In this document: one piece after another, positions 2,025-12,150 of the stretch
Position numbering within the stretch: the first letter of the stretch is position 1
How the letters are laid out: each line of letters begins with the position of its first letter
NCBI GenBank assembly: GCA_002842505.1
Contig: PHDE01000013.1
Span: 1 to 33,961 of the forward strand
Origin: Bacteroidetes bacterium HGW-Bacteroidetes-3
GTDB taxonomy: Bacteria > Bacteroidota > Bacteroidia > Flavobacteriales > Flavobacteriaceae
Reading direction: 5' to 3'
Length of the DNA stretch: 33,961 bases
Position numbers and translations under genes: made by a program
Notes under the pieces: model-generated
The model's input: the letters and a program-made list of their open reading frames with translations, nothing else
Database searches by the model: none
What the model was told of the DNA's origin: nothing

Positions 2025-3005
2025 ATGAAAAAAATTAACATTTTTAATATTCATAATAGCCACGAGTTCGAAAAAATGGCACTTGAGATTTTTCAATTTC
2101 AGGCTGAAAACAATTTGGTTTATAAAGAATTTATTACGCTTTTGAATATTGATATTTATAGGGTTGAAAAAATTGAGGAAATTCCTTTTTTGCCCATACA
2201 ATTCTTCAAATCACATAAAGTTGTGTCTTCTGATGAAGCTGTTCAACACATTTTTTTAAGCAGCGGCACTACCGGAAATGAGCAAAGCAAACATTTTGTT
2301 ACCGATTTATCTATTTATGAAGAAAGCTTTACCAAAGGATTTGAGCATTTTTATGGTTCTATTTCAGCGTATACCGTTTTGGCTTTGTTGCCTTCTTATT
2401 TGGAGCGTGATGGATCTTCTTTAATTTATATGGTGAACGATTTTATTCAGAAATCTAAAAATGAAAAAAGCGGATTTTATCTGAACAATTTAGAAGAATT
2501 GGCTAAAAATTTAGTGGAATTAGACAAAAATAACGAAAAAACACTATTAATTGGCGTTTCTTTTGCTTTGTTGGATTTGGTTGAGAAGCACAAGTTTAAG
2601 CTAAAAAACACAATTGTGATGGAAACCGGTGGCATGAAAGGCAGAAGAAAAGAATTGATCAGAGAGGAATTGCATCAAATTTTGCGCGAAGGTTTTGGCG
2701 TTGAAAACATACATTCGGAATATGGAATGACCGAATTATTGAGCCAGGCCTATTCAAAAGGAAACGGCATTTTTGAATGTCCGCCCTGGATGAAAATTCT
2801 AACGCGCGACACAGAAGATGCTTTGACTATTTTGCCCGAGGGAAAATCGGGCGGTATTAACATTATAGATTTGGCAAACAACAATTCCTGTTCTTTTATC
2901 GCCACACAAGATTTAGGAAAAACTTACGAAAACGGAACCTTCGAAGTTTTGGGAAGGTTCGACAATTCGGATATCAGAGGCTGCAATTTAATGGTGATGT
3001 CATAA
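2025..3005 (+). CDS. LuxE/PaaK-family acyl-protein synthetase / acyltransferase
   Basis: ORF with LSSGTTGNEQSKHF and EYGMTELLSQAYSKGNGIFECPPWMK motifs of the LuxE family. ATG at 2025 preferred over the TTG at 1983; TACTTTTG -7-like box at 1999-2006. Confidence 0.8.
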   Translation: MKKINIFNIHNSHEFEKMALEIFQFQAENNLVYKEFITLLNIDIYRVEKIEEIPFLPIQFFKSHKVVSSDEAVQHIFLSSGTTGNEQSKHFVTDLSIYEESFTKGFEHFYGSISAYTVLALLPSYLERDGSSLIYMVNDFIQKSKNEKSGFYLNNLEELAKNLVELDKNNEKTLLIGVSFALLDLVEKHKFKLKNTIVMETGGMKGRRKELIREELHQILREGFGVENIHSEYGMTELLSQAYSKGNGIFECPPWMKILTRDTEDALTILPEGKSGGINIIDLANNNSCSFIATQDLGKTYENGTFEVLGRFDNSDIRGCNLMVMS

Positions 3006-3088
3006 ATTCCCCTCCATTGGAGGGGTGTCCGCAGGACGGGGTGGTTAATTCCCCTCCATTGGAGGGGTGTCCGCAGGACGGGGTGGTT
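3005..3088 (+). repeat. Two identical tandem 42-bp copies of a REP-like double-hairpin repeat
   Basis: AATTCCCCTCCATTGGAGGGGTGTCCGCAGGACGGGGTGGTT at 3005-3046 and 3047-3088; internal dyads CCCCTCCA/TGGAGGGG and GTCC/GGAC. Confidence 0.95.
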
Positions 3089-3578
3089 TTTCTCCGTATT
3101 CCCTAACAATAAATGCTTCCAACAAACTCATTGCGTTTCCTAAATTCTTCTTTACGTCAATATCAGTTATACGATACATTTTCAGCCCAAGATTTTCTAA
3201 ATATAATTGTCTTTTTGCATCATATTCAACCTTGTCATCGTGGCTAGATCCATCAATTTCAATAATTAAACCTAAAGTTTTTACATAAAAATCGACGATA
3301 TAATTGCCAATAATTCGCTGCCGGTCAAAATCTATTTTGTAAAACTTTCTTTTATGTACTTGCTGCCAAAATAAAACTTCTGAAAGAATTCCTTTTTTTC
3401 TTTTGCCTTTTGTCAGTCGGGAAAGCGCGGGATTGTATGGCAGGTTTTCAACGAAATTTCTTATAATTGGAGTGTTGTTAATAGTTGTAAGAATAATTTT
3501 ACCATGTTGTGGCGTAGTGACCACCCCGCCCTGTGGGCACCCCTCCGGTGGAGGGGAATTTGTTTTAGGTGATTTCAT
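3045..3578 (-). CDS. DUF559 domain (Vsr/endonuclease-like fold) protein, framed by repeat-derived sequence
   Basis: 177 aa; EVLFWQQVHKRKFYKIDFDRQRIIGNYIVDFYVKTLGLIIEIDGSSHDDKVEYDAKRQLYLENLGLKMYRITDIDV is a typical DUF559 core. N- and C-termini are encoded by the flanking repeats. Confidence 0.85.
   Translation of the reverse strand: MKSPKTNSPPPEGCPQGGVVTTPQHGKIILTTINNTPIIRNFVENLPYNPALSRLTKGKRKKGILSEVLFWQQVHKRKFYKIDFDRQRIIGNYIVDFYVKTLGLIIEIDGSSHDDKVEYDAKRQLYLENLGLKMYRITDIDVKKNLGNAMSLLEAFIVREYGEKPPRPADTPPMEGN
3519..3560 (-). repeat. Third, inverted and diverged copy of the 42-bp REP-like repeat
   Basis: GACCACCCCGCCCTGTGGGCACCCCTCCGGTGGAGGGGAATT aligns with the reverse complement of the 3005-3088 copies; differences preserve the hairpins. 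Confidence 0.9.
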
Positions 3579-3708: not shown

Positions 3709-5019
3709 CTATATAACTTTCAGCAAAAAATAGCTTTTTTTACCGCGTTGCAGCAACACAAATTTATTGGCGATTAAATCATTAGCAGTAATTATAAAAT
3801 CGTCCGATACTTTTTCTTTATTTACTGAAATTGAATTTTCGCTTAAAGCCCTGCGCACTTCTCCATTCGATTTTAAAAAACCATAATCTGCAAATGCGGC
3901 AACAATTCCCAATCCGTTTTTAATAACGGAACGTTCAATTTCTGCTTGTGGAACGCCTTCAAAAACATCCAGAAATGTTTGTTCATCCAAAGTTTTTAAA
4001 TCTTCTGCAGTAGAATTTCCGAATAAAATATTTGAGGCTTTAATAGCGTTTTCATACGCTTCATTTCCGTGTGTCATAATAGTGACTTCTTCCCCAATTT
4101 TCTTTTGAAGAATTCTTAAATGCGGGGTTTTTTGATGTTCTGAAATTAAAGTTTCAATGGTTTCTTTGTCTAAAAAAGTGAAAATTTTAATATAACTTTC
4201 CGCATCTTCATCCGAACAATTTAACCAATATTGGTAATATTTATAAGGCGATGTTCTGTTGGCGTCTAACCAAACGTTTCCTCCGGCTGTTTTACCAAAT
4301 TTTGTGCCGTCGGCTTTGGTAATTAATTTACAGGTTAATGCGTAGGCTTTTCCCTGCGCTTTTCTCCTGATTAATTCGGTTCCCGTGGTAATATTTCCCC
4401 ATTGGTCGGAACCTCCCATTTGAAGTTTACAGTCTTTTTCTTTGTATAAATGGTAAAAATCGTAGCCCTGAAACAATTGGTAGGTAAATTCGGTAAAACT
4501 CATTCCGGTTTGAGAGTCGGAATCCAGTCGTTTTTTTACCGAATCTTTCGCCATCATATAGTTTACGGTAATGTGTTTGCCAATATCGCGCACAAATTCA
4601 ATCAATGAAATTTCTTTCATCCAATCGTAATTGTTTACCAATTGTGCTGCATTTTTTGTTGTGCTGTCGAAATTTAAAAAACGTGCCAATTGTGCTTTTA
4701 CGCCAGTCACATTTTTGGCCAAAGTTTCTTCATCCAACAAATTTCTTTCTTCCGACTTTCCTGAAGGATCGCCCACCATTCCTGTGGCGCCGCCCACCAA
4801 AGCGATTGGGTTGTGGCCTGCTTGTTGAAAATGCATCAACAAAATGATAGGCACCAAACTTCCAATATGCAACGAATCGGCTGTTGGGTCAAATCCAATA
4901 TAGCCGCTTGTTTTATTTTTCAATAAATATTCTTCGGTTTCGGGCATAATATCGTGTAACATGCCTCTCCAACGCAGTTCTTCAACAAAATTCATCATCA
5001 AATTTTTAAATTTCAGCAA
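3709..5019 (-). CDS. tyrS: Tyrosyl-tRNA synthetase (likely start at an internal Met, [13 protein letters not shown])
   Basis: 436 aa; class I aaRS motifs ([21 protein letters not shown]-like KFGKT), [15 protein letters not shown]-terminal S4-like region. Confidence 0.97.
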
Positions 5020-11762: not shown

Positions 11763-12057
11763 TTTAAATTTTTATTGAAGAGGTAAATATAGGAAGAATA
11801 ATGCGTTGTTTATAACGGTAAAGTGCCTAAAATTAATTAGCCAATTCGATAATTATTAATTTCAGTTATTTGATTTTATACAATCCACGTATTTTATGAT
11901 AAAAACCAAGTTAAAAATTATAGAAAAAAATTCAATCATAATTTGTATTTAACCGCAAGGGACGCAAGAAAAAAAACGCAAAGTGCGCCATTTTTTTTTG
12001 GTTAACATTTGATTACGCCATTTTTAAAATCGTAGGTCAAAAATCGTAAATAAATTT

Positions 12058-12150
12058 GCGTTAGGGGTTGCAGTGAAAACCTTTTTGCGCTTTTTTAGCG
12101 AAAAAAGTTTGGAACGAAAAACCCGACCCGCCAGTTGGCGGGGAACGCCC
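12058..12150 (+). repeat. Structured intergenic element of a family I believe is recurrent in flavobacteria
   Basis: GCGTTAGGGGTTGCAGTGAAAACCTTTTTGCGCTTTTTTAGCGAAAAAAGTTTGGAACGAAAAACCCGACCCGCCAGTTGGCGGGGAACGCCC; stem 12081-12107 (CTTTTT.CGC/GCG.AAAAAG) and CCCGCC-AGTT-GGCGGG (12127-12142). Confidence 0.6.

Follow-up and report, generated by a model that had tools for sequence, protein, structure and literature searches.

A DUF559 nuclease gene between inverted REP-like repeats as a probable REPtron-like mobile unit

The window analysed here, a stretch of 33,961 nucleotides from Bacteroidetes bacterium HGW-Bacteroidetes-3, contains a locus that is probably one copy of a REPtron-like mobile unit, in which a DUF559 nuclease gene lies between inverted copies of its cognate REP. 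We show that the pairing of nuclease and REP is conserved across genera and is specific to each nuclease subfamily. As the driver behind the spread of a very common type of bacterial repeat, the DUF559 family is a strong candidate; binding, cleavage and transposition of the repeats by the nuclease are inferred.

The unit starts directly after the stop codon of a LuxE-like acyl-protein synthetase gene (PF04443; 1983-3005, + strand), and tyrS (3709-5019, - strand) is the neighbour on the right. Two identical 42-mers lie in tandem on the + strand at the left side. The outer one (3005-3046) consists of a hairpin CCCCTCC/GGAGGGG (3009-3025), an inner stem TCC/GGA (3028-3036) and a tail GGGGTGG (3038-3044), and the second (3047-3088), read on the - strand, gives the C-terminus of the protein (PPRPADTPPMEGN). 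The inverted third copy (3520-3561, - strand), which is 88% complementary by sequence comparison, has its hairpin outermost and its tail GGGGTGGT toward the gene, and 432 nt separate the inverted arms. The nuclease ORF (3045-3578, - strand) has 177 aa as called, its true start codon being uncertain, and carries a DUF559/Vsr-like PD-(D/E)XK domain at 3126-3404 (- strand). An earlier note had claimed that tandem 42-bp repeats and an inverted copy box the DUF559 ORF, that the repeats encode its C-terminus and that its stop codon arises at the repeat-repeat junction, and all of this held: the repeat at 3047-3088 encodes the C-terminal KPPRPADTPPMEGN, and the junction 3046/3047 runs through the TAA (3045-3047, - strand). 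The repeat-coded C-terminal reading also recurs in relatives. The claim that the N-terminus is read from the repeats held only in part, because repeat coding of NSPPPEGCPQGGVV depends on translation starting at the ATG at 3578. That start is doubtful, since one relative (L139) uses another reading frame through the same repeat and since an ATG (MKEIL...) lies between the repeat and the domain in Chryseobacterium relatives. We consider it unlikely that the repeat-coded N-terminal part is a conserved design.

Chance repeats can be rejected as an explanation, given that inverted matches of this strength were found in 0 of 2,336 control window pairs and that the arrangement recurs in 59 of 76 relatives; the same recurrence excludes a purely local oddity. 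The unit has terminal inverted repeats, a criterion for insertion sequences, and the filled and empty luxE-tyrS intergenic sequences align too loosely for a target-site duplication to be read. Repeat copy numbers in this study derive from pattern searches, and these found one further exact copy of the window-type repeat in its own genome, along with other repeat classes. The idea that the exact repeat is abundant there was thus rejected; the class is low-copy in that genome. Elsewhere in the window, at 12053-12132 (+ strand), we observed an Rfam Flavo-1 RNA (RF01705, 50.3 bits).

The 177-aa ORF matches the PF04480 DUF559 profile above cut-off (E = 3e-22, residues 59-151), and its profile matches include no Y1 HUH transposase, only DUF559 and a weak MTES_1575. 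In a set of about 106 DUF559 domains from 201 genomes, nearly all of different genera, D96, E107, D109 and H113 are conserved in at least 102 of 106 domains, and all four are intact in the window protein. The AlphaFold2 model of this protein has a pLDDT of 90, and Foldseek places it closest in the PDB to the DUF559 protein 3hrl and to the catalytic domain of I-Bth0305I (3r3p; probability 1.00). The nuclease is under purifying selection: dN/dS is about 0.07 among orthologues in its own genus and 0.03-0.11 in other groups, indicating that the protein is maintained as functional. PADLOC returned weak matches only and no defence assignment, and a plasmid search gave diverse DUF559 matches. Short C-terminal matches to the DUF559 profile (positions 66-108) were also observed in ORFs of ~155-190 aa from many genera and probably represent another nuclease family.

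A scan of named genomes gave 80 relatives of the window subfamily, in Chryseobacterium, Flavobacterium, Pedobacter, Lutibacter, Polaribacter, an ignavibacterium, a Ghiorsea MAG and others. For the 76 relatives with enough flank, an inward-facing repeat is present on the left in 67, on the right in 63 and on both sides in 59. Repeat density is 3.10/kb within 350 bp of the gene against 0.026/kb beyond 1 kb, an enrichment of about 119-fold, and the 72 loci with both neighbours readable represent 41 distinct neighbour contexts. Many stand-alone copies are flanked by long direct composite repeats (up to about 600 bp), which either accompany or replace the simple inverted ones, and at several DUF559 loci no flanking repeat was detectable. 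In four relatives (L140, L141, L165 and L175), the ORFs of window-type units continue in frame into adjoining proteins, which, judging by the motif APIDILDYI, look like DNA methyltransferase/helicase proteins.

The stand-alone DUF559 genes split into several clades, and five subfamilies each have their own repeat class across genera. Flanks of genes from the same clade in different genomes share 7.3 G/C-rich 9-mers, compared with 1.65 for different clades and 1.9 for different clades within one genome, and this contrast is nearly gone 1-1.6 kb away (2.6 vs 1.9 shared 9-mers). Individual motifs follow the same pattern when flanks of their own clade are compared with those of the others: CCCCTTGAG is found in 12/19 vs 1/52, AAGGGGTGG in 5/5 vs 0/66, ACACACCCC in 8/10 vs 0/61 and GAGGGGAGC in 14/25 vs 0/46.

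Each copy of the window repeat has the layout AATT-CCCCTCC-ATT-GGAGGGG-TG-TCCGCAGGA-C-GGGGTGG-TT, comprising a 7-bp hairpin, a small second hairpin and a G-rich tail. The inner stem shows compensatory changes among relatives, with 55/57 cells paired as opposed to 33/57 when the alignment is slid by one. The tail reversed, GGTGGGG, differs from the purine arm GGAGGGG only in having T for A, and such a match corresponds to the rule for antiparallel purine-motif third-strand pairing (PMC4666352). A hairpin and a third strand obeying the purine-motif code can thus be read directly from the window repeat. Other classes illustrate the same rule, one clade having the arm GAGAGGGG and tail GGGGTGTG and another the arm GGGAGGGG and tail GGGGTGGG. 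In the 30 nt downstream of hairpins near DUF559 genes, the fit to the third-strand rule is 0.75 vs 0.64 for shuffled sequence (p = 8e-17), whereas the sequence upstream of those hairpins fits about as well as shuffled, so that the excess is downstream only. That the G-rich tail can fold back as a third strand, giving a purine-motif intrastrand triplex, is inferred from sequence alone, and physical triplex formation remains an inference. The window repeat has a second linker of 12 nt, which holds the extra hairpin, while other classes have shorter linkers; with this linker the window repeat fails the criterion of Holder et al. 2015 that both loops be 1-6 nt. The outer boundary is conserved on both sides as aaATT followed by CCCCTCC, and the window copies have this end instead of a GTAG-type foot, which is absent from them.

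At the genome level, the hairpin-plus-tail pattern is present in 39/201 genomes, and a reversed control had almost no matches. Full-length DUF559 is carried by 35/39 pattern-positive and 30/162 pattern-negative genomes (OR 38.5, p = 7e-17), and the association persists when only REPs away from DUF559 genes are counted (OR 28, p = 1e-13). Y1 transposases show no independent association once DUF559 is accounted for (OR 1.7, p = 0.45), and a strong Y1 match occurs in none of the four REP-positive genomes without DUF559. For the window pair in 298 genomes of the order, the cognate nuclease is found in 32/46 repeat-positive and 2/252 repeat-negative genomes (OR 286, p = 1e-29; p = 0.0014 within one family). 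These statistics control only partly for phylogenetic non-independence, and close genomes are not independent. By the search used, 14 of the 46 REP-positive genomes lack the cognate nuclease, with solitary copies persisting in them, and the strict REP pattern is missing in 2 of the 34 nuclease-positive genomes; decay of the repeats after loss of the enzyme would explain genomes with repeats and no nuclease, an inference on our part. In a sample of solitary repeats, 37/38 are extragenic, though 82% of that sequence is coding. We show that DUF559 predicts the presence of solitary intergenic REPs. As a separate observation, genome G033 (L309-L314) has 143 copies of CCCCTCTTGAGAGGGG(C/T)TAGGGGTG-type repeats and four DUF559 matches, and would be a good population for a study of repeat spread.

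Presence/absence turnover at the same site is shown by the luxE-tyrS interval. It measures 710 bp here, and three relatives that carry the unit have 611-709 bp; in two close relatives that lack the unit the interval is 65 and 67 bp, and several outgroups also have a short one. On the tyrS tree, unit presence requires at least three changes, and the empty luxE-tyrS sites nested among occupied species carry no repeat scar. The corresponding segment of leuS has about 30 residues in most genera without an insert and 161-231 with one, and REPs are absent at most of the empty leuS sites.

The remaining claims of the earlier note can be judged against these results. Its likening of the arrangement to REP/RAYT, with an endonuclease-like protein, is supported (59/76 both-sided, no Y1), and its proposal of a DUF559-driven mobile unit that seeds solitary repeats is supported by association, mobilisation itself being inferred. 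Simple inverted boxing had to be corrected in view of the many stand-alone copies with long direct composite repeats. Equal repeat abundance in genomes lacking DUF559, set beforehand as a refuting outcome, was not seen (OR 38.5; cognate OR 286), nor was a lack of enrichment beside DUF559 genes (about 119-fold enriched). The gene was not seen without repeats at luxE-tyrS in the occupied species checked with both ends readable, where the repeats are kept. The suggested empty luxE-like/tyrS sites in relatives were found, at 65 and 67 bp.

DUF559 copies also occur in frame inside host genes. In the genome of the window, they lie within metH (L001, contig C241, 1426-1855) and leuS (L002, contig C44), with G/C-rich palindromes at the joints. 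In other genera, DUF559 is found within leuS, metH and recG, N-terminal to hemD and to a PALP-family gene, and C-terminal to hisD, and the linkers of the in-frame copies are repeat-coded. The leuS, metH and recG copies form one clade with gene-specific subclades and must therefore be at least partly inherited or gene-targeted; such host-gene-specific clades fit inheritance as well as repeated jumping. AlphaFold2 modelled the whole LeuRS with its insert poorly (mean pLDDT 70), the inserted domain reaching about 80 between low-confidence repeat-coded linkers. In the leuS genes L248 and L260, the position of DUF559 holds only a short in-frame repeat-like peptide, VIASE(T/A)KQS, which likely comes from a different (CGTC-type) palindrome. 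Locus L111 (G126 contig C1, about 236 kb) has a 717-aa ORF with an internal DUF559-like match; the segment after the match ends in YIVNGVVVHNCDE, which resembles an intein C-terminal splice motif, and an intein with a DUF559-like nuclease is possible.

The same association extends to Proteobacteria, where most of 28 DUF559 loci are bordered on both sides by palindromic repeats, inverted or direct (the control sample was small, n=55). A typical flank motif is CCCTCTCCC..GGGAGAGGG..GGGTGAGGG, and we identify these flank repeats as the class II intrastrand triplex motifs of Holder et al. 2015 (PMC4666352). Hundreds of bacterial genomes contain repeats of this type, in many copies, and the repeats have been linked to genome rearrangement; Holder et al. 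report that activities providing genetic mobility were never found around triplex motif sites (PMC4666352). CGTC-type REPs have likewise been reported without a dedicated enzyme (PMC3733652). In E. coli K-12, the annotated DUF559 gene is ycjD (L306 1706-2261; MG1655 1351205-1351760). One of the 23 Holder motifs is found about 166 bp away from its stop codon, a proximity expected by chance in about 0.5%, and the C-terminus of YcjD, ending RRSPSP at the stop, reads into a decayed copy of the triplex motif. The gene is present in 3366/5426 E. coli genomes. As a clean empty-site test we rejected ycjD, since strains that lack the gene have an efflux operon next to fabI.

The mechanism we propose is inferred; for DUF559 units we observed neither transposition events nor target-site duplications, nor any biochemical activity. 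The nuclease would recognise the folded REP, probably when it is single-stranded at replication, and would nick or cut there; repair, replication or recombination would then carry a copy, either of the REP by itself or of the entire unit, to new sites. Units entering open frames may survive because the repeats are short, are free of stop codons in one frame and encode flexible linkers, and the nuclease would then be made as part of the host enzyme. A bolder reading, towards which the balance tips without settling, is that DUF559 and G-rich triplex-forming REPs make up a nuclease-repeat mobile system that spans Bacteroidota and Pseudomonadota, provides the engine so far lacking for a palindromic repeat class that ranks among the commonest in bacteria (the E. 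coli triplex motifs included), and can persist in essential enzymes, for example leucyl-tRNA synthetase, as a passenger domain that is translated with them.

The main rival, which we regard as unlikely, is a homing-type element: DUF559 would cut pre-existing REPs or fixed sites in leuS, metH and recG, homologous repair would copy the gene in, and the repeats would be a target moved by something else. In its favour are I-Bth0305I, a homing endonuclease, as the nearest solved fold after 3hrl, the gene-specific clades of copies at fixed positions in leuS, metH and recG, and the many stand-alone copies between direct repeats of up to about 600 bp, an arrangement that entry into a repeat would produce. 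Against it, the empty luxE-tyrS sites and most empty leuS sites have no REP, and no other enzyme explains the repeats, Y1 transposases not being independently associated. A host maintenance enzyme of the Vsr-like repair type, with regulatory or terminator hairpins nearby and solitary repeats spread by recombination or another factor, is very unlikely. Strong purifying selection speaks for it, as does Caulobacter VsrA, the only experimentally studied DUF559 protein we found, which was interpreted as a mismatch-repair endonuclease (PMC12907096); however, patchy presence, turnover, 41 contexts, both-sided inward orientation and subfamily-specific repeats are not expected of a resident gene. Mobilisation of the REPs by RAYT/IS200-type Y1 transposases, with DUF559 as a passenger, is all but excluded: Y1 genes are common in these genomes, and a Bacteroidetes RAYT subclass 2.6 has been reported among atypical palindromes (PMC6006769), but Y1 adds nothing given DUF559 (OR 1.7, p = 0.45) and a strong match is found in 0/4 REP-positive genomes without DUF559.

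Under the preferred reading of a REPtron-like unit, a specific and widespread enzyme partner makes the origin of triplex repeats a biochemical question and gives DUF559 a candidate role; REP-enzyme pairing is placed on a catalytic fold different from that of RAYTs, and a mobile unit lives in frame inside essential genes without splicing. We found no DUF559-REP link in the literature searched, which did not cover subscription literature, and that literature yielded no published description of such a nuclease-REP pairing. With REPtrons (RAYT/TnpA-REP), the DUF559 units share inverted palindromic flanks, solitary intergenic copies, enzyme-repeat co-variation and patchy distribution (PMC6006769, PMC3733652). 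REPtrons have an HUH/Y1 enzyme and a GTAG foot, whereas the DUF559 unit has a Vsr-fold PD-(D/E)XK nuclease, no GTAG and a G-rich third-strand tail, and, unlike REPtrons, also occurs in frame within essential genes. In the way it works the unit resembles a REPtron, but it lacks the defining features of one, an HUH/Y1 enzyme and a GTAG foot. With the class II triplex motifs (PMC4666352), the likeness is that the same motif lies beside proteobacterial DUF559/ycjD and that the Bacteroidota classes obey the same third-strand rule; no mobility gene was reported for those motifs, whereas we propose an enzyme partner for the DUF559-linked repeats. Published DUF559/Vsr-like nucleases (PF04480; 3hrl; VsrA) share the domain, fold and catalytic residues, but no REP or mobility link was found for them and VsrA was read as mismatch repair. 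The EDxHD homing endonuclease I-Bth0305I (3r3p) shares the fold of the catalytic domain and the acidic/His motif. This endonuclease is associated with a phage group I intron; the DUF559 unit has no intron or intein and has paired palindromic ends instead. Rickettsia palindromic elements (RPE) are similar in placing palindromic repeats in frame inside functional genes, a location that the window copy, lying between luxE and tyrS, does not have and that the leuS, metH and recG copies do. RPEs carry no nuclease, whereas the DUF559 units bring one with them and are also intergenic.
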